Below, piece after piece: positions 1 to 14,160 of a DNA stretch of 30,936 nucleotides (its first letter is position 1; every line of letters begins with the position of its first letter). The position numbers were made by a program, and so were the translations under genes. Under the pieces are notes generated by a model. The model did no database searches. It saw only the letters and a program-made list of their open reading frames with translations, and was not told the DNA's origin. This DNA is from a virus. The stretch spans positions 1 to 30,936 of the IMG/VR virus record IMGVR_UViG_3300009285_000836; one strand, 5' to 3'.

Positions 1-225
1 CTCGTGCAACTGGGCTACCCTATCCCGAACGGAATTACCGATTTGTATGGTGTGGAAACGCGGAGCGCGGTACACGCTTTTCAAAGAGACAATGGAATCG
101 TGGGGAACTTCGGACAGAACTTCGGGCCGAAGACACGACTCGCAATGAATCGTCGTCTCAATCCGGATGCGCCGTTCGGAGGTTCTTTCCTAACTTACCT
201 CGGTTCTCTTTTTTCAAACTCATGA
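1..225 (+). CDS. Peptidoglycan-binding domain protein, C-terminal part (5' end outside window)
   Basis: The reading frame is already open at base 1, so the gene starts upstream of the window and only about 74 C-terminal residues are visible. They contain a PG_binding_1-like unit: an LG/YP turn followed by a YGVETRSAVHAFQRDNGI stretch and then FGPKTRLAMNRRL, the usual pattern of G-x-x-T-x-x-A-x-x-x-F-Q seen in such domains. These three-helix domains attach endolysins or wall hydrolases to peptidoglycan, so the missing N-terminus may hold a catalytic domain. The stop overlaps the ATG of the next gene (ATGA at 222-225), indicating translational coupling in a lysis operon. The domain call is fairly safe. 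The enzyme type is unknown. Confidence 0.7.
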   Translation, partial: LVQLGYPIPNGITDLYGVETRSAVHAFQRDNGIVGNFGQNFGPKTRLAMNRRLNPDAPFGGSFLTYLGSLFSNS

Positions 226-581
226 TTGATTGGCTATTTTCTCTCTGGGATAATAGAGAACTTGGAGCCGAAAGAAGCTCGGGCTGGGCGGAAGATAGCA
301 GAAATGCAATTAAAGAAGCAAACAACTTGTGTCAGATGGGACTCCATAAACCGACACTTCTTAATCCATTGGCGACTCATCACATAAAAAGTTTCCACGA
401 GTTCCCGGAATTGGAGCGCGAATCAAGCAACTGGATTGTCTTGTGTAGGTTCCACCATTTTCTTCACGCCCACTTAAAAAACTGGTCGCGGAGCAATCTG
501 GGGATACAGGGAGATTGTGATGCCCTTAATGCTAAAATTAAGGGAACTATATACATGATAACACCTCATACTATAACATAA
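222..581 (+). CDS. HNH-nuclease-like protein, 3' end replaced by transposon sequence
   Basis: A 119-residue ORF with a histidine-rich core: C-Q-M-G near residue 37, then THHIKSFHEF, an NWIVLC segment and RFHHFLHAHLKNW. This spacing (HH...N..LC..HH...H) resembles HNH zinc-finger nucleases, which cut DNA and are common in phages; HNH activity is inferred. The ATG overlaps the previous stop. The last residues are not native: the transposon at 542 entered codon 107. Removing the transposon and one target duplication restores a frame ending K-I-K-L-stop, whose TGA overlaps the ATG at 3581. The ancestral protein was therefore 108 residues and coupled to the next lysis gene. The present tail of about 13 residues comes from the transposon end. 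Confidence 0.65.
   Translation: MIDWLFSLWDNRELGAERSSGWAEDSRNAIKEANNLCQMGLHKPTLLNPLATHHIKSFHEFPELERESSNWIVLCRFHHFLHAHLKNWSRSNLGIQGDCDALNAKIKGTIYMITPHTIT
534..541. repeat. Target-site duplication, left copy
   Basis: AAAATTAA lies directly before the left terminal repeat and is repeated exactly at 3570-3577 directly after the right one. Eight bases is the duplication length expected for the IS1595 family. Confidence 0.93.
542..566 (+). repeat. Left terminal inverted repeat of the transposon
   Basis: Starts GGGAACTATATACAT. The first 15 bases are identical to the inverted copy at the right end, positions 16-17 differ, and the next eight (TAACACCT) match again. Confidence 0.93.
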
Positions 582-652
582 AAAATACTATCCCCATAAT
601 TTTATAGGTCGCTTGCATTTCAAAATTTGTGGTATCCTAAATATGGTACTAG

Positions 653-725
653 TGCCCCAGCGGAGCTTCGAACTCCGTTTTGACGCTCCAAAGGCGTCCG
701 TACTGTCCAATTATACGACTGGGGC
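653..725 (-). tRNA. trnQ: tRNA-Gln (anticodon UUG)
   Basis: Read on the minus strand from 725 to 653, this folds as a complete 73-nt tRNA. The acceptor GCCCCAG pairs with CTGGGGC and is followed by discriminator A. The D-arm is GTAT/GTAC with GG in the loop. The anticodon stem GACGC/GCGTC encloses loop CTTTGGA (anticodon TTG). The variable loop is AAAA, and the T-arm CGGAG/CTCCG encloses TTCGAAG. The 3' CCA is not encoded. The gene lies inside the transposon boundaries, so it moves with the element. Short direct repeats GGTACTA flank it at 645-651 and 729-735. The anticodon reads CAA (and possibly CAG by wobble). It is not a suppressor. Confidence 0.92.
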
Positions 726-741
726 GTTGGTACTATCCTGA

Positions 742-780
742 CAGAAAATCCTCGCTTTGCGGGGATTTTCTGCTTTTAAT
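742..780 (+). terminator. Terminator-like hairpin between tRNA and transposase
   Basis: A 14-bp stem (CAGAAAATCCTCGC at 742-755 with GCGGGGATTTTCTG at 759-772, one G-T wobble) with a TTT loop is followed by CTTTT. It would stop rightward transcription coming from the interrupted lysis operon before it reaches the transposase. Confidence 0.65.
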
Positions 781-801
781 AGAAAATCCCATGCTGACTA
801 C

Positions 802-945
802 TGGAGCGCAAAAGTCAAAGTTTTTCAACCGAGACGCTTGCTAGGAGCGTTTGTGCGCTCCATGAGTCAAGACGGGAATGATTCTCTATTGGGTTTAAAT
901 CCTGTAAAGAAACAGCGACAATGACTCACTCAAACGCTACTAGCA
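802..945. repeat. Nested inverted repeats in noncoding transposon DNA
   Basis: No plausible gene is seen between 781 and 1047. The stretch contains TGCTAGGAGCGTTTG (839-853) facing CAAACGCTACTAGCA (931-945), 14 of 15 complementary. Inside it TGAGTCA (863-869) faces TGACTCA (922-928). A further pair TGGAGCGC (802-809) faces GCGCTCCA (855-862) and competes with the first. The alternative pairings suggest a folded RNA or a protein-binding cruciform. The function is unknown. Confidence 0.6.
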
Positions 946-995
946 TCATCAGTATAGAGTGTTCTACACCCTGCACAATACCCATTTTTGCCTTA

Positions 996-1029
996 TGTGG
1001 ATAACTGTTGTCTTATTTTGTTATCCACT
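996..1029. promoter_or_regulatory. Inverted pair of DnaA-box-like sites
   Basis: TGTGGATAA (996-1004, an exact inverted DnaA box) faces TTATCCACT (1021-1029, one mismatch). Together GTGGATAAC and GTTATCCAC form a perfect 9-bp inverted repeat with a 14-nt spacer, 19 bp upstream of the transposase -35 box. It could serve as a DnaA-responsive operator, a role inferred only from the match to the DnaA consensus. Confidence 0.5.
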
Positions 1030-1047
1030 TCTAGTGTTATCAGGTAC

Positions 1048-1076
1048 TTGACAGGACTTTTGTGTGGGTATAAGAT
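1048..1076 (+). promoter_or_regulatory. Sigma70-type promoter of the transposase
   Basis: TTGACA (1048-1053), a 17-bp spacer and TAAGAT (1071-1076). A start about seven bases after the -10 box falls at 1083, the A of the transposase ATG, so the transcript is predicted to be leaderless or nearly so. Confidence 0.7.
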
Positions 1077-1082
1077 AGAGGT

Positions 1083-2081
1083 ATGAAGAAAATAACAAAG
1101 AAAACGCCAAAAGAAATGAGTATCATTGAGTTTCTTACCAGTAAGTTCCCGAGCGAGGATGCCGCAGTCGCCTACTTTGAGATGAGGCGATGGAACGGCT
1201 CGGTTGAATGTCCGCATTGCGGGAGCGACCATGTATACAAAGTAAGCGGTTCGCAACCGCATAAATGCTCTTCTTGTAAGGTGAAGTTCACCTGTAAGAC
1301 GGGAACGATTATGGAAGGTAGCCATGTGTCCGTCCGCATGTGGCTCTTGGCGATGTTTCTTATGGGCACGGCTCGCAAAGGCATCTCGTCCATTGAAATG
1401 GGTAAACAACTCGGCGTGACTCAAAAGACGGCGTGGTACATGGCGCATCGCATCCGCGAATCGTGCACCGAAGCGGCGAAACTGCGCGGCATCATAGAAG
1501 TGGACGAAGTGTATATCGGGGGAAAGGAAAAGAACAAGCACGCCAATAAGCGCATCCGCAAGGGGCGCGGTGTCGCCAACAAAATACCAGTAGTCGGCTT
1601 GCGCTCGCGGACAGGCAAAGTGATAGCGCGGGTAGTTCCGAACACGAGCAAGCGCACATTGGAGAATTTTATTTCCAAGAATGTTGCCGCCAAGAGCGCG
1701 GTATTTACGGATGAGCACAAGTCATACCGAGGATTGAAAAAACTCGGCTACAAGCATCACACTGTCAATCATAGCAAGGGCGAATATGTAGACGGCATCA
1801 CGAACACGAACGGTATGGAAAGTTTCTGGGCGTTATTCCGTAGGGGTTTGATGGGCACATTCCACAGCGTGAGCAAGAAACATTTACAACGCTACATGGA
1901 TGAGTTCAGTTTCCGCTCCTCTCGCAATCTCTCGCTTTCATTCATTGACGCGGTGTGCATGAAAGCATCTAGTGGCTCGCTTCCCTATCGTACGCTCACG
2001 GGCGGAAAGCCCGTAGCGGTTCGGCTGTCTCATGTTCTGTCCCCGATCTCGCCGATGCGTTATACTATGGCTATACGCTGA
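1083..2081 (+). CDS. IS1595-family (ISXO2-like) DDE transposase
   Basis: A 332-residue protein with the standard two parts of this family. The N-terminal zinc ribbon has CPHC near residues 43-46 and CSSC near 61-64, followed by CKTGTIMEGSHVSVRMW. The C-terminal RNase-H-like core carries IIEVDEVYIGG (first Asp), VFTDEHKSYRGL (second Asp) and a GMESFWALFRRG segment holding the third acidic or Asn position. Length is typical and no frameshift is seen. It cuts and pastes the element that ends in the 25-bp inverted repeats found here, and the 8-bp target duplication agrees with the family. The ATG is chosen because it lies at the predicted transcription start. The methyltransferase gene begins two bases after its stop. 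Confidence 0.93.
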   Translation: MKKITKKTPKEMSIIEFLTSKFPSEDAAVAYFEMRRWNGSVECPHCGSDHVYKVSGSQPHKCSSCKVKFTCKTGTIMEGSHVSVRMWLLAMFLMGTARKGISSIEMGKQLGVTQKTAWYMAHRIRESCTEAAKLRGIIEVDEVYIGGKEKNKHANKRIRKGRGVANKIPVVGLRSRTGKVIARVVPNTSKRTLENFISKNVAAKSAVFTDEHKSYRGLKKLGYKHHTVNHSKGEYVDGITNTNGMESFWALFRRGLMGTFHSVSKKHLQRYMDEFSFRSSRNLSLSFIDAVCMKASSGSLPYRTLTGGKPVAVRLSHVLSPISPMRYTMAIR

Positions 2082-2082
2082 T

Positions 2083-2865
2083 ATGTCCCCACGCCAAACA
2101 CAAATCATTGAGCCGCTACAGGAAACTTTTGAGCAAATCGTGGAAGCCGTAGCGAGAAAACCGAGAACCGTATTTTCTAATGGACGGCATCTGCAACAGC
2201 CCGACTTCAAGATACCCGAGGGATTGAAATTAGATGCTCGGCAGAAAATGGAGGGCTTGAAAATGCTCAAAGCAATATCAGCCGCAAGCGTGCCTCTTGT
2301 GTTCTTTGACCCGCAGTATCGCTCTGTCATGGACAAACAGAAGTACGGCAACGAAGGCGAGCAACGGGGCATGGAGCGAGCCGAACTGCCGCAGATGACT
2401 AACAAGACCATCCATAAGTTCATTGAACAAATAGAGCGCATCCTCATGCCCTCGGGACACTTGATGCTGTGGGTAGACAAATACATAGTCGTGTCAGGCA
2501 TCCACGCATTATTAGAGGGTAGTTCTCTGCAACTGGTGGACATGATTACATGGAATAAGAAACGCATGGGCATGGGTTATCGCTCCCGCCGCTACTCCGA
2601 ACATCTTGTCGTCTTGCAGAAACTTCCTGTGCGAGCAAAGGGCGTGTGGCGCATCCACGACATTCCTGATGTGTGGGACGAGAAAATAGAGAATGGCGAT
2701 AAAAACCACACGCACGCCAAGCCGCCACGCCTACAACAAACGCTTATCCGCGCTGTTACGAATAAGAATGATGTCGTAGTAGACCCTGCCGCAGGGGGAT
2801 ACTCTGTTCTCACAGCCGCACTTGCTACCGAGAGACATTTCCTCGGATGCGATATACTGGGCTGA
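2083..2865 (+). CDS. DNA adenine/cytosine-N4 methyltransferase (transposon cargo, RM partner)
   Basis: A 260-residue amino-methyltransferase. Catalytic motif IV reads FFDPQY (about residues 74-79, with Gln in place of the usual second Pro) and precedes the AdoMet-binding motif I VDPAAGGYSV near the C-terminus, which is the order of the beta class. The middle contains SGHLMLWVDKY, ITWNKKRMGMGYRSRR and a KPPRLQQTLIRA segment found in this class. It would protect DNA at the site cut by the neighbouring nuclease. The start at 2083 follows the transposase stop by one base; an upstream in-frame ATG at 2032 lies inside the transposase gene and is less likely. Its stop is directly followed by the nuclease ATG. 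Recognition sequence cannot be predicted. Confidence 0.88.
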   Translation: MSPRQTQIIEPLQETFEQIVEAVARKPRTVFSNGRHLQQPDFKIPEGLKLDARQKMEGLKMLKAISAASVPLVFFDPQYRSVMDKQKYGNEGEQRGMERAELPQMTNKTIHKFIEQIERILMPSGHLMLWVDKYIVVSGIHALLEGSSLQLVDMITWNKKRMGMGYRSRRYSEHLVVLQKLPVRAKGVWRIHDIPDVWDEKIENGDKNHTHAKPPRLQQTLIRAVTNKNDVVVDPAAGGYSVLTAALATERHFLGCDILG

Positions 2866-3546
2866 ATGGCTCTCATAGAAGACGCAAAAGGACGGCGTGA
2901 GGGACAATCACCGAGCGGATATACCCGCTTATTCGGCATCTTTGCTCTCGGCAATCTCATGTCTCGCGTACAGGGCGCAGTTATCGCGTCAGGCAACGAA
3001 CTGGAAGACATGATATGGGAGCGTGTGAAATATCCGATAGCCGACCTTGACGAGTTCATCTCCAAGACCATCCACACAAGCGAGAATAAAACCTATGTGG
3101 CTACCAAAAATCAAATCAAAAAGAGCAAGAGTATCAACTCAAAATACGAACCTGATTTCATAGCGTTCAATCCGTCCTCGCGCCATTGTTATATCGTGGA
3201 AGTAAAAGACGGCGACACTTTTGATACCAAAAAATCGGCGGGAGAACATATAACACTCCACAATTTCAACAATGATATTTCACAGTCGCTCCCATATTCC
3301 ACGAGCATCCACATGTGCTGTTTCAACTCACCAACGCGCGAAGAGCCATTCTATGGTCTTAAAAAGAAGTTCGCTTTGCAAGAACTTTTAACAGGTAAAG
3401 AATTGGGCAATTTATTTGGCTTTGATTACGATGAAATAGTGGAAATGCGCACGAGCGACCAGCAGAGTAATTTGGATTATTTCATCCGTGCTATTCTTGC
3501 GATTGACAATATCCGCAATATGATAGTAAAGCGGCTCAAAGGTTAG
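2866..3546 (+). CDS. PD-(D/E)XK restriction endonuclease candidate (transposon cargo)
   Basis: A 226-residue protein with a clear PD-(D/E)XK core: EPDFIAF (Pro-Asp at 96-97), a 14-residue gap, then YIVEVKDGDTFDTKKS (Glu112-Val-Lys114). An acidic helix NELEDMIWE (44-52) is the usual N-terminal element of the fold. The gene starts immediately after the methyltransferase stop, so the two form an operon of the type II restriction-modification kind. Type II nucleases diverge strongly, so sequence alone gives the fold and context gives the function. Its stop codon falls at the inner edge of the right terminal repeat, so the operon is packed tightly against the end of the element. No damaging change is seen. 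Confidence 0.8.
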   Translation: MALIEDAKGRREGQSPSGYTRLFGIFALGNLMSRVQGAVIASGNELEDMIWERVKYPIADLDEFISKTIHTSENKTYVATKNQIKKSKSINSKYEPDFIAFNPSSRHCYIVEVKDGDTFDTKKSAGEHITLHNFNNDISQSLPYSTSIHMCCFNSPTREEPFYGLKKKFALQELLTGKELGNLFGFDYDEIVEMRTSDQQSNLDYFIRAILAIDNIRNMIVKRLKG

Positions 3547-3569
3547 GTGTTAAGATGTATATAGTTCCC
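3545..3569 (-). repeat. Right terminal inverted repeat of the transposon
   Basis: The reverse complement begins GGGAACTATATACAT, identical to the left end for 15 bases and matching in 23 of 25. Confidence 0.93.
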
Positions 3570-3577
3570 AAAATTAA
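3570..3577. repeat. Target-site duplication, right copy
   Basis: AAAATTAA, identical to 534-541. Joining the two flanks through one copy restores the original HNH stop overlapping the ATG at 3581. Confidence 0.93.
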
Positions 3578-3580
3578 ACT

Positions 3581-4147
3581 ATGATTGACTACAACATAGG
3601 ATGGATAGTAGGAATTATCGCGGCAATCGCAGGAGCATATACCGCCTTTGCTCGTGTCTATAAGTTCGGTCCCTTTTTAGAGAAAGAAGCCCCCACAAGC
3701 CCCGAATCCACAGAAACGCCCCCTATTACTAATATCACAGAAACTATGCCTACAAAGCCAGATTTAAGCCCCACAACGTATCCTAAAGCTACCCTAGAGA
3801 ACTTTCTTTTAGCAATCCGCGATTTTGAGGGGAAACCGGGCGACCAGAACTACAGACTGAATAATCCGGGCAACTGCCGGTATAATCCAACTGGCTATCT
3901 TCCCATCTACGGAAAGGTGGGGCGCTCACCAAATGGCTTCGCCGTCTTTTCTTCTTATGAAATAGGGTGGAAATATCTCACACGGATGGTTGAAGGACAG
4001 ATAAGCAAACATCCGAATTGGTCTATATTGGATTTCGTAAATAACTACGCTCCCGCGAGCGACAACAATCCTGTACTAAATTACGCCAATTTTATCGCAA
4101 AAAGACTGGGTGTGTCGGTAGATTTCAAGATGAAAGGATTGGTTTAG
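3581..4147 (+). CDS. Membrane-anchored lysozyme-like peptidoglycan hydrolase
   Basis: A 188-residue protein. Residues 7-25 (GWIVGIIAAIAGAYTAFAR region) form one membrane segment. Residues 35-65 are a Pro/Thr-rich linker. The C-terminal domain has DFEGKPGDQNYRLNNPGNCR, then FAVFSSYEIGWKYL and YAPASDNNPVLNYANFIAKRLGV. The E-G...R-x-N-N-P-G-N and G-x-A-V-F patterns occur in phage lysozyme-like/virion hydrolase domains, with the Glu of DFEG as a plausible catalytic acid. It probably cuts peptidoglycan while tethered to the membrane. In the ancestral phage its ATG overlapped the HNH stop. The transposon now separates them by 3 kb, so expression must come from elsewhere or from transposon read-through. 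Confidence 0.7.
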   Translation: MIDYNIGWIVGIIAAIAGAYTAFARVYKFGPFLEKEAPTSPESTETPPITNITETMPTKPDLSPTTYPKATLENFLLAIRDFEGKPGDQNYRLNNPGNCRYNPTGYLPIYGKVGRSPNGFAVFSSYEIGWKYLTRMVEGQISKHPNWSILDFVNNYAPASDNNPVLNYANFIAKRLGVSVDFKMKGLV

Positions 4148-4975: not shown

Positions 4976-5077
4976 GTCGGGGAAATGAGTATTATCCGTT
5001 TGCATACATGGTTTTTCTTTTGATTCTACGATGACGCAGAAGGGAGGCTTGTGCAGTTTCCTGCCCCTATAGTATAC

Positions 5078-5110
5078 ACAAAAAGAACAGGCAAGTTATC
5101 CACTTGCCTG
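5078..5110 (-). terminator. Terminator at the end of the leftward early operon
   Basis: Stem CAGGCAAGT (5088-5096) with ACTTGCCTG (5102-5110) and a five-base loop. On the minus strand it is followed by TTCTTTTTG, a proper U-tract. It lies just past the stop of the last leftward gene. Confidence 0.8.
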
Positions 5111-5116
5111 CCTCGG

Positions 5117-5440
5117 CTACAGCGAGACTTCCCCCTTCCGCCAGACGACCTTTTGCTTCAGGTCATTCAGGTCGGTGAAGTCGGCTTCGACGACGACTTG
5201 CGGTTCAAAACCGTTGTCATCGTAGATTAGCATATAGCCAACCATCTCATCATTCGTTACGTCAATATACAAGACGCACGGACGGACGAGTGGTTTGTCT
5301 TTCCCCATAACGTAGAGCATGTCCACGTTACAGGTTGCGGTTGCGATAGGCACTTTCCCTTTCAGGATTTCCTGTGCAAACACTTCCACGGTTACTCCGA
5401 GAAGGAGTAGCAATCCGAAGACAATCAAGAGCTTTTTCAT
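5117..5440 (-). CDS. Secreted or membrane-tethered small protein of unknown function
   Basis: A 107-residue protein with a classic signal peptide: MKK, a long hydrophobic run (LLIVFGLLLLLGVTVEV) and a FAQ cleavage region, giving a mature part of about 84 residues. The mature part is beta-rich with two cysteines (ATCNVDM and VRPCVLYID) that could form a disulphide. An AAGGAG ribosome site six bases before the ATG fixes the start. It is the last gene of the leftward block and is followed by a terminator. Secreted phage proteins of this kind sometimes change the cell surface or inhibit superinfection, but nothing in the sequence identifies the role. Confidence 0.75.
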   Translation of the reverse strand: MKKLLIVFGLLLLLGVTVEVFAQEILKGKVPIATATCNVDMLYVMGKDKPLVRPCVLYIDVTNDEMVGYMLIYDDNGFEPQVVVEADFTDLNDLKQKVVWRKGEVSL

Positions 5441-5464
5441 CGCGTTCTCCTTCTAAAAGAAATG

Positions 5465-5647
5465 CTAATGAACGAATCCGGCCATACGCCGAACATTCTC
5501 GGCGCGTTGTTCGGTTTCCCTCCTTTCCTCCTGAACCTTTGCGTAGCATTCTGGATGAAAAAACCAGTGGTACGCGGAGTTGTTAAGTCTTTCGGGTATA
5601 CAGGCTTCGCCCGATTCGATTGATTCCTGACACAAATGACATATCAT
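5465..5647 (-). CDS. Zinc-finger-like small protein
   Basis: A 60-residue protein with MICHLCQ (CxxC) at the N-terminus and HWFFHPECY (H..H..C) about 25 residues later, the ligand spacing of a small treble-clef or LIM-like zinc site. The rest is a charged helix (EERRETEQRAENVRRMA). AAGGAG six bases upstream of the ATG at 5647 decides the start over the GTG one codon earlier. The gene lies directly downstream of the noncoding structured stretch at about 5700-6130, so that stretch may be part of its leader. The function is unknown; a role in nucleic-acid or protein binding is inferred. Confidence 0.7.
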   Translation of the reverse strand: MICHLCQESIESGEACIPERLNNSAYHWFFHPECYAKVQEERRETEQRAENVRRMAGFVH

Positions 5648-5699
5648 CACATTCTCCTTATCAAGGAACTGGCGTGAAGTGCTTGGAACGAGAGGTGAG

Positions 5700-6130
5700 A
5701 CTAATGAATACTCACAAGCGAATCATAATACTCTGTTGTTCGGTCACGTACCTCCAGCTAATATAATCTTCCGGAGTTAATGTACGGGTGGAGTGGTTAC
5801 CACCAAGAGCATACAGCCATCATTAAAGAAGTTTCTTTATAGACGATTTGTGCCCTTCTTACGATACTGAACGATACTTTGAGTTTCCCCGCAGTACCGA
5901 AACGGGTTGTACGACCCGCGTTTGTTTAACCTTACAAAGTACTATGTCTACAACTTGTCGTTTCGGCTTTTCAGCCTAGCAACAATGCCTTACTAGCTGG
6001 CGACCAGTTAATTCGGCCACTCCCGATTCAAGCACTCCATCTCTCCCCAGAATAGCACGCTATTTCTGCGTCAAACGACTTGTCCCCGCGAGTAGGTCGC
6101 CATCAGTAGTCGCAATGTTACTTATAACCT
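5700..6130 (-). ncRNA. Candidate large structured RNA, no family assigned
   Basis: About 480 bases without a credible ORF on either strand lie between two leftward genes. Read on the minus strand they hold several pairings. TACT + TGGCGACC (near 6107-6095) pair with GGTCGCCA + AGTA (6005-5992 region), giving 12 bp with a small internal loop. A hairpin GGCT-GAAA-AGCC (5977-5966) has a GNRA loop. Others are AATAG-CGTG-CTATT (near 6063-6050) and CGGGT/ACCCG (near 5920-5905). CGTAC + CTCC pair with GGAG + GTACG (5786-5747). A GTCGTTT/AAACGAC pairing would cross the first helix as a pseudoknot. Boundaries are approximate. It could be a free RNA or a long leader of the gene at 5647. Confidence 0.5.
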
Positions 6131-6132
6131 AT

Positions 6133-6228
6133 TTAGTATACCCTAGATTTTAGCACTTTATCCATTGCGCTCGGTTCCTCCCATTTCCACGGATAATCAT
6201 CTGTTTTCCTCTCGGGGTTTTCTTCCAT
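6133..6228 (-). CDS. Very small hypothetical protein (31 residues)
   Basis: An acidic/charged 31-residue ORF starting MEENPERKTDDYPWKWEEP and ending SRVY. An AGGA element lies about eight bases before the ATG. It fits between the structured stretch and the 53-residue gene upstream, all leftward with the same coding style. The last codons contain GGTATACTAA, which resembles the -10 boxes of this phage and could also start the downstream RNA. The function is unknown. Confidence 0.5.
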   Translation of the reverse strand: MEENPERKTDDYPWKWEEPSAMDKVLKSRVY

Positions 6229-12333: not shown

Positions 12334-12660
12334 ATGAGTGTTCCGAAGTCCATCGCATTGAAAGTAAGAAAAAGAGACGGTTTATTTTGCCGCGGGTGTG
12401 GCGTTCCCCAGTCGGTAAACAAATATAAAATAGGTTATCGTCTCGTAGAAACCTCATTTGATTTACATCACATTCACGACCCGAAAGATAATGCGGAGAT
12501 AAACCTGATTACTCTTTGTAAGTATTGTCATCGGTTTCTCCACAAACTGAAAAGACTAGATGAAGGCAACTACGCCTCCACCATACAAGGAATAATAGAC
12601 CGCGAAATAGTATTAGAGAGCAGATATTGTCCAACGTGTTTTCAGATATTGAAGGTATGA
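12334..12660 (+). CDS. HNH endonuclease-like protein
   Basis: A 108-residue protein: ALKVRKRDGLFCRGCGVP (typical 'R-x-R-D-g-x-x-C-x-x-C' opening), then FDLHHIHDPKDNAEINLITLCKYCHRFLH. The His-His, Asn and His of the HNH site and the two CxxC zinc pairs are all present. A third pair (CPTC) lies near the end. It starts one base after the RHH-like gene and overlaps the frame of the next one. Compact HNH proteins of this kind serve in phages as free-standing nucleases or packaging helpers. Here the position next to methyltransferase genes leaves a restriction-type role open. Confidence 0.8.
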   Translation: MSVPKSIALKVRKRDGLFCRGCGVPQSVNKYKIGYRLVETSFDLHHIHDPKDNAEINLITLCKYCHRFLHKLKRLDEGNYASTIQGIIDREIVLESRYCPTCFQILKV

Positions 12661-12680
12661 ACTCCATTAAAGGAGGGAAG

Positions 12681-13460
12681 ATGAACCAAATAATCTGCGG
12701 GGATTCTTTAGAAGTATTAAGGACGCTCGCGGATGAGAGTGTAGATTTGACTGTTACCTCGCCGCCCTACGACAACTTGCGCGACTACAAGGGATATTCT
12801 TTTAACTTTGAGGGCATTGCAAAGGAATTATACCGAGTTACCCGACCCGGGGGGGTAGTGGTGTGGGTTGTCGGCGACCAGACAACGAACGGAAGCGAGT
12901 CGGGTACGAGTTTCAGACAAGCACTTTTCTTTAAGGAAATCGGGTTTAATTTGCACGATACGATGATTTACGACAAAGGGAAAGTGATATTTCCCGATGC
13001 GAATCGGTATCACAACTGCTGGGAATATATGTTTGTGTTCTCTAAAGGACCGCCTAAAACTTTCAATCCTATTGCGGACCGAAAGAATAAATATCCGACA
13101 AAAAACACTGAAACATCCTATAGGCAAAAAGACGGGACTACAAAGAAGAAAATATCTAAACAGGCGCAAGAGTTTGGTTGGAGAAATAACATTTGGTACT
13201 TCCCTTCTGGCTATATGGTTGGTACACAAGATAAAACAGCGTTTGCTCACCCCGCAACATTCCCAGAAGCACTCGCACGCGACCACATCATCTCTTGGAG
13301 TAACGAAGGCGACCTCGTACTGGACCCATTTCTCGGAAGCGGAACAACCGCGAAAATGGCGCACAACCTTAAAAGAAACTATATCGGGATAGATATTTCA
13401 GAAGAGTATTGCGAAATCGCGCGGAAAAGGATAGCCGGACAATCATCACCTCTCCTATGA
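12681..13460 (+). CDS. Site-specific DNA methyltransferase (TSPPY type)
   Basis: 259 residues from the ATG at 12681, chosen because AGGAGGG lies five to ten bases upstream, one of the strongest ribosome sites in the window. Catalytic motif TSPPY (26-30) near the N-terminus and AdoMet motif DPFLGSGTT near the C-terminus give the beta-class order. SPPY occurs mostly in N4-cytosine and some N6-adenine enzymes. The closing segment RNYIGIDISEEYCEIARKRI is the usual end of the fold. It would modify phage or host DNA, often to escape restriction; no partner nuclease other than the adjacent HNH gene is seen. The stop overlaps the start of the second methyltransferase. Confidence 0.9.
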   Translation: MNQIICGDSLEVLRTLADESVDLTVTSPPYDNLRDYKGYSFNFEGIAKELYRVTRPGGVVVWVVGDQTTNGSESGTSFRQALFFKEIGFNLHDTMIYDKGKVIFPDANRYHNCWEYMFVFSKGPPKTFNPIADRKNKYPTKNTETSYRQKDGTTKKKISKQAQEFGWRNNIWYFPSGYMVGTQDKTAFAHPATFPEALARDHIISWSNEGDLVLDPFLGSGTTAKMAHNLKRNYIGIDISEEYCEIARKRIAGQSSPLL

Positions 13461-14160
13461 CCCCCCTCACTGACGCTGGAGAGACTACGCAGACGATAAT
13501 ACAGGGAGATTGCCTAGAGGTGATGAAAGATATACCTCCCGAAAGCGTCTCAATGATTTTTACCGACCCTCCCTACGGAATGAATCTTGACACTGATTGG
13601 CGCGGCGCGAAATCGTCTCTCAGGTTCGCACAAGACAAAGGAGTGTTCGGCGGTAAGAAGTATGACCGAGTGATAAATGACGACAAGCCCTTTGACCCAT
13701 CGCCCATAATGGAAAGATACGCCTCTGTAAAAGAGCAATTCTGGTTCGGCGCAGACTACTACTGCAAAAGGATAAAAGACCTAGAACTCGGCTCTTGGTT
13801 CGTTTGGGATAAGCGTCTCACAGAGTTGGCGGACAAGATGTATGGTTCTGGATTTGAGATGATATGGTCAAAACAAAAACACAAACGAGATGTCCTACGC
13901 TGTAAATGGGCGGGAGTATTCGGGGTAGAGAAACAAGATATAAAGACGAGGGTACACCCGAATCAGAAACCGCTTGAATTACTTGAGAAGATAATCCTCG
14001 CCTACTCAAAAGAGGGCGACTTGATAGTTGATTTTTTCGCGGGGGGGGCAGTATCCCCCTGGCTTGCAAGAAACATAATCGCCAATATATAGGAATAGAA
14101 ATCTCCCCTGAATACTGTGAGATAGCAAGACAAAGACTCTCCCAGTCAATCCTTCTTTAA
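13457..14160 (+). pseudogene. Second DNA methyltransferase, frameshifted in a G8 tract
   Basis: Starts with an ATGA overlap (13457-13460). It has IIQGDCLEVMKDIPPESVSM and the catalytic TDPPYG near residues 36-41, then RVHPNQKPLELLEKIILAYS and the beginning of AdoMet motif I, DFFAGG. The run of eight G at 14041-14048 then shifts the frame and the product stops at 14092 after 211 residues. In the next frame the expected sequence continues: GS, then ACKKHNRQYIGIEISPEYCEIARQRL up to a TAA at 14160. Nine G would restore one intact protein of about 234 residues. This is a true mutation, a phase-variable tract, or a sequencing/assembly error in a homopolymer. Confidence 0.85.

Follow-up and report, generated by a model that had tools for sequence, protein, structure and literature searches.

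Insertion sequences (IS) of the IS1595 family that carry passenger genes (tIS) have been described, including MTnSag1/tISSag10 and tISCpe8, which (PMC5704250, citing Siguier 2009) combine an IS1595 DDE transposase and 25-bp terminal inverted repeats with a passenger gene. Mobilization of restriction-modification (RM) genes by IS elements or within composite transposons is known (PMC3031569 and references there), and RM systems are a frequent cargo of Tn7-like transposons (PMC8649781). Here we analyze an element at positions 542 to 3569 of the IMG/VR virus record IMGVR_UViG_3300009285_000836, a phage contig and not a cellular genome; its whole length of 30,936 bases is referred to as the window. 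The element adds an RM pair to the known class of IS with passenger genes.

Several features distinguish this locus from its described counterparts. According to the same source, tISCpe8 and MTnSag1 are mobilizable elements with other passengers (lincomycin resistance in tISCpe8). In contrast, the window element has a methyltransferase-restriction endonuclease (MTase-REase) pair coupled to the transposase, together with a tRNA gene. No relaxase gene was seen among the long forward open reading frames (ORFs) of the element, which are those of the transposase, MTase, and REase; the search did not extend to an origin of transfer. The cases in PMC3031569 likewise have RM mobilized by IS, but with the RM genes between two IS copies or moved by cointegration, whereas here they lie inside the ends of a single element. 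The window does not hold a composite transposon, in which two IS copies would enclose the RM genes: the whole contig gave one transposase match, and the RM genes lie within one pair of ends. Tn7-like transposons are alike in their frequent RM cargo but differ in their transposition machinery and very diverse cargo; the RM genes of the window are packed behind a single DDE transposase in 3 kb. On a Campylobacter coli/jejuni plasmid (NZ_CP027635.1; WP_002784932.1 and WP_200408904.1), the same MTase and REase families are adjacent in the same order. However, the plasmid is conjugative, the pair has repL and vapC as neighbors, no IS1595 transposase is annotated close by, and the plasmid MTase does not have the N-terminal extension of the window MTase. 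In the literature searched, which did not include Siguier 2009 and Furuta 2010, no report was found of RM pairs joined to the transposase of an IS1595 element.

Boundaries and insertion site

The element, its genes, and the phage genes on either side are as follows (window positions).

222 to 581, plus strand: HNH-like phage gene, cut near its 3' end by the insertion (PHROG HNH, 1.7e-07, joined-flank translation)
534 to 541, no strand: left copy of the target-site duplication, AAAATTAA, identical to 3570 to 3577
542 to 566, plus strand: left terminal inverted repeat, 25 bp, GGGAACTATATACATGATAACACCT, 23/25 to the right end; the ends of relatives are alike
1083 to 2081, plus strand: IS1595-family DDE transposase (DDE_Tnp_IS1595 PF12762, 4.7e-48; zinc ribbon PF12760, 6.5e-12; NF033547, 2.3e-63)
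2083 to 2865, plus strand: DNA methyltransferase, N6_N4_Mtase (PF01555, 2.6e-18; PADLOC MTase_II PDLC03271, 1.1e-75)
2866 to 3546, plus strand: type II restriction endonuclease with a PD-(D/E)xK motif (PADLOC REase_II PDLC03487, 3.1e-45, full length)
3545 to 3569, minus strand: right terminal inverted repeat, 25 bp, GGGAACTATATACATCTTAACACCT, 23/25 to the left end
3570 to 3577, no strand: right copy of the target-site duplication, AAAATTAA, identical to 534 to 541
3581 to 4147, plus strand: endolysin-like phage gene downstream of the insertion (PHROG 873 endolysin, 6.2e-10; relatives in viral contigs L091 to L093)

Positions 542 to 3569 constitute a complete ∼3-kb IS1595-family transposon inside a phage endolysin cassette. 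The inverted repeats begin with GG, and a shuffled-flank control on the window gave best end matches of 15 to 18 of 25, compared with 23 of 25 for the real ends. In the transposase alignment, catalytic residues D141, D210, and E246 and zinc residues C43, C46, C62, and C65 were all in place. Transposase relatives in bacterial and archaeal genomes and in viral contigs have ends reading GGGAA(C/T)TATATAC or close variants, with 8-bp duplications, and target duplications of 8 bp are the norm of the IS1595 family (PMC8101967).

The site of insertion can be followed in the phage genes. As a result of the insertion, the final residue of the HNH protein is replaced by a 12-residue tail and the overlap with the endolysin-like gene is lost; joining the window flanks in silico brought back an ATGA overlap of the two genes. 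In the sister viral contig L091, the same HNH end meets the same endolysin-like gene at an ATGA overlap, with no insert, an empty site that shows, on comparison of the two contigs, that an insertion took place. L092 and L093 differ in that their endolysin-like domain is preceded by an N-terminal domain in the same protein. In the window, insertion of the element into the endolysin cassette duplicated 8 bp. An initial annotation, made from the letters of the window, had proposed an IS1595-type transposon with intact ends and an exact 8-bp duplication, a single operon of transposase, methyltransferase, and PD-(D/E)XK nuclease, and an insertion in a lysis operon whose ATGA overlap returns once the element is removed. 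All of this agrees with our results, as does the empty site that it predicted in a sister phage.

The restriction-modification pair

The transposase, MTase, and REase genes form one tightly packed operon, with 1 nt between the transposase stop and the MTase and 0 nt between the MTase stop and the REase. Both cargo genes are open and of full length, with family motifs kept. The variant MTase motifs are DPQY and DPAAGGY, of which the Campylobacter homologue shares the first and most of the second, and REase residues P96, D97, E112, and K114 are common to the Campylobacter plasmid REase. The predicted structure of the REase (pLDDT 42) was too poor for a fold search.

The same MTase-REase pair was found in the same order on five Campylobacter plasmids (MTase, 55.5%; REase, 36.7 to 38.8%) and in phage contig L179 (50% and 47%). 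Because the two genes recur in this way on plasmids and in another phage, the predicted MTase and REase of the element are a real RM pair. No IS1595 transposase was present in the viewed stretches around the pair on the Campylobacter plasmids and in L179. These transposon-free pairs show a possible source of the cargo and leave the boundaries of the window element unaffected. The initial annotation had held that RM genes resident in a phage would speak against a transposon; residence was indeed observed in L179, but the boundaries described here stand.

Pattern scans for close relatives detected none of the MTase or the REase in viral contigs and none of the REase in genome contigs; the phage-borne REase relatives were reached by alignment query. 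In L178 (an Omnitrophota genome) and viral contig L180, REase relatives adjoin a different MTase, which we tentatively read as being of the CcrM/HinfI type. In L180 (6001 to 8967), the REase of the same family is convergent to the CcrM-like MTase, and an unrelated transposase-like gene lies beside them. Given these neighbors and a weak HpyAIV match (E = 0.0036), GANTC may serve as a first guess at the recognition site. No avoidance of GANTC was detected in the phage sequence, and the site therefore stays a guess.

Cargo of related elements and competing explanations

We surveyed 90 loci with a transposase relative, including the window, picked by transposase similarity and not by cargo. Elements were delimited by their ends and duplication at 53 loci, giving 52 distinct elements (L085 and L086 hold the same one); the same procedure delimited 0 of 159 controls with shuffled flanks and 3 of 159 with swapped right flanks. 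The crude ORF picker used for the cargo may have overlooked genes that are short or weakly matched. DNA MTase cargo was found in 16 of the 52 elements, nearly always accompanied by a nuclease: BglII, NotI, MvaI/BcnI, or PDDEXK_11 type, or an HNH, Mrr, or GIY-YIG fusion. Besides the two-gene pair of the window, these units are listed by locus.

L004, L088: two-gene pairs with a PDDEXK_11 nuclease
L007: two-gene pair with a BglII-type nuclease
L012: two-gene pair with an MvaI/BcnI-type nuclease
L015: two-gene pair with a NotI-type nuclease
L064: two-gene pair with REase PDLC03515
L068: two-gene pair, partner without a family match
L033, L065, L072, L075, L083: single-chain MTase-HNH fusions
L019, L054: single-chain MTase-Mrr_cat fusions
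L003: single chain of a partial MTase and a GIY-YIG-type (T5orf172) domain

L007, L012, L064, and L088 have a 4-nt overlap between the MTase start and the transposase stop. Cargo ORFs comprised 12 N6_N4 and 4 D12 MTases in 136, compared with at most 1 N6_N4 and 1 D12 MTase in 147 ORFs flanking the same loci (P ∼9e-4 for N6_N4 alone and 2.5e-4 for both types); the flanking counts are upper limits because single-member families beyond the first 25 are not included in them. On a tree of 51 transposases, at least nine changes between RM and other cargo fell on well-supported branches, and the RM label clustered no more strongly than when shuffled. RM-bearing elements are dispersed across the transposase tree, which implies repeated gain or loss of such cargo. 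The position following the transposase has been reloaded with unrelated RM pairs throughout this transposon type, a recurrence of which the initial annotation was unaware. Two relatives have features of their own. In L004, a 104-residue ORF (5900 to 6214) overlaps the transposase stop by 4 nt ahead of the MTase and could encode an RM controller protein. In L007, the transposase frame of the BglII-type RM-bearing element (5001 to 5984) has two stop codons, so this element may no longer move by itself.

We consider it probable that the window holds an autonomous IS1595 transposon with RM passengers that stabilize it, most likely a selfish transposon kept by its translationally coupled RM genes. 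Transcription of the operon would probably start at a promoter immediately ahead of the transposase gene, and a hairpin at 742 to 772 may shield the element against phage read-through. Since the MTase precedes the REase, the genome of a new host or phage would be methylated ahead of any cleavage. The RM pair would most likely stabilize the transposon: cells without it would be killed once they had lost it, and competing DNA that is unmarked, including that of rival phages, would be destroyed. The carrier phage would gain incidentally at best. Host defense, addiction, and attack on rival phages had each been put forward as possible roles in the initial annotation.

Some observations weigh against this explanation. 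RM cargo is absent from L002, the closest relative in which the element is complete. The initial annotation had proposed a search for the ends of the element and for an empty site; the latter exists in L091, but an exact search of viral contigs for the 25-bp ends found none, and with them no sister copy of the exact element. The activities of the MTase and REase are predicted from sequence, and the addiction role is argued by analogy with RM systems in general. A wider query gave 322 transposase relatives among matched viral stretches, and a further 46 delimited phage-borne elements carried mostly little cargo, with RM genes in some copies; phage-borne copies thus carry RM cargo repeatedly but not as a rule. 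The following carried such genes.

L205: C5 MTase and HNH gene
L212: MvaI/BcnI REase
L247, L248: C5 MTase
L261: 800-residue N6 MTase

The RM cargo could instead be chiefly a phage weapon or shield, with the MTase marking the phage genome and the REase destroying competing phages or the host chromosome. The transposon-free pair resident in L179 is consistent with this, as is the position of the element in an endolysin cassette, where the REase reads towards the endolysin-like gene. However, RM cargo was equally common in element copies from bacterial and archaeal genomes, and its spread therefore needs no phage benefit. Complete RM systems are also very rare in phages (9 in 831 genomes; PMC4176335), and no sister phage with the element was found in the viral contigs searched. 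We regard this alternative as unlikely. Equally to be weighed is that the RM genes are neutral or decaying passengers, captured by chance at a jump and of no present function. The diversity of the cargo, the many delimited elements with other or no recognizable genes, and the interrupted transposase frame of RM-bearing L007 would fit such an origin, but the intact state of both window genes does not, and chance capture predicts neither the enrichment of MTases relative to the flanks nor the repeated overlap with the transposase stop; it is an improbable account. An assembly artifact that placed a bacterial transposon in a phage contig is hardly credible: although the junctions of this metagenome contig are known from assembly alone, the flanks on the two sides belong together as a single phage cassette, the target duplication is exact, and sister phage L091 has the same genes joined.

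A stabilizing role for RM in a selfish transposon would bear on how RM genes move between genomes, for which the vehicle is usually unclear: a 3-kb single-IS unit with exact ends is testable, and is a concrete unit for asking whether RM genes are addiction modules for a transposon. Elements related to this one hold different RM pairs at the corresponding position in many phyla, so small transposons of this type seem to serve quite generally as vehicles of DNA-cutting defense systems. More tentatively, and perhaps somewhat short of an even chance, a group of IS1595 transposons may be a dedicated reloadable RM carrier: in bacteria, archaea, and phages alike, unrelated MTase-nuclease units would repeatedly refill its stop-coupled slot, and transposition and addiction would form one genetic unit. 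The recurrence of the transposase-MTase-nuclease order in unrelated RM families points to a general path by which RM systems spread between phyla and into phages, and new restriction enzymes could be found by reading from the IS1595 transposase stop codon to the right end.

Left-end features and phage background

Four further features lie between the left inverted repeat and the transposase; the tRNA gene and the strong hairpin region were not noticed in the initial annotation.

652 to 725, minus strand: tRNA-Gln gene, anticodon TTG, inside the element (ARAGORN; Rfam tRNA, 52.4 bits)
742 to 772, no strand: terminator-like hairpin with a 14-pair stem (sequence scan and folding)
775 to 893, no strand: long imperfect palindrome, strongly folding (inverted repeat I2, 787 to 813/851 to 877)
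1048 to 1076, plus strand: promoter-like site TTGACA-17-TAAGAT, ending 6 nt before the transposase ATG

The tRNA-Gln gene is upstream of the transposase on the opposite strand. Its matches were short and partial, in 19 genomes, and host assignment from this gene failed. The idea that tRNA cargo is peculiar to the window element was dropped because tRNA genes also lie within three other delimited elements. In viral contig L201 (7470 to 10536), an array of 24 tRNA genes is located ∼1 kb downstream of an IS1595 element. The region from 730 to 900 folds with z = −5.06. A Leu_leader match upstream of the tRNA gene on the minus strand (E = 0.067, about half the gathering score) was taken as chance. 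Since the promoter-like site ends 6 nt before the ATG, a leaderless transposase message is possible; promoter-like matches of this kind are about as frequent in shuffled sequence.

Among the genes of the window are those for a large terminase, an Erf-like annealing protein, and endolysin-like proteins. The terminase has at most 67% identity to relatives in other viral contigs and only ∼32% to named phages. Outside the transposon, two N6_N4-type methyltransferase genes that overlap one another (12627 to 13460 and 13409 to 14092) belong to the phage itself. The phage sequence is very poor in GATC (2 versus 107 expected), and TCGA (11) and CTNAG (18) are likewise very rare. GATC is likewise very rare in L091, L096, and L112, which are related viral contigs, as if their hosts commonly cut this site. 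The GATC shortage is common to phage and element (1 versus 11.7 expected in the element). In contrast, CATG is abundant in the element (20 versus 11.7 expected) and scarce in the phage (44 versus 107 expected; Fisher, 1.7e-6), a difference that fits, but does not prove, a different ancestry for the element.

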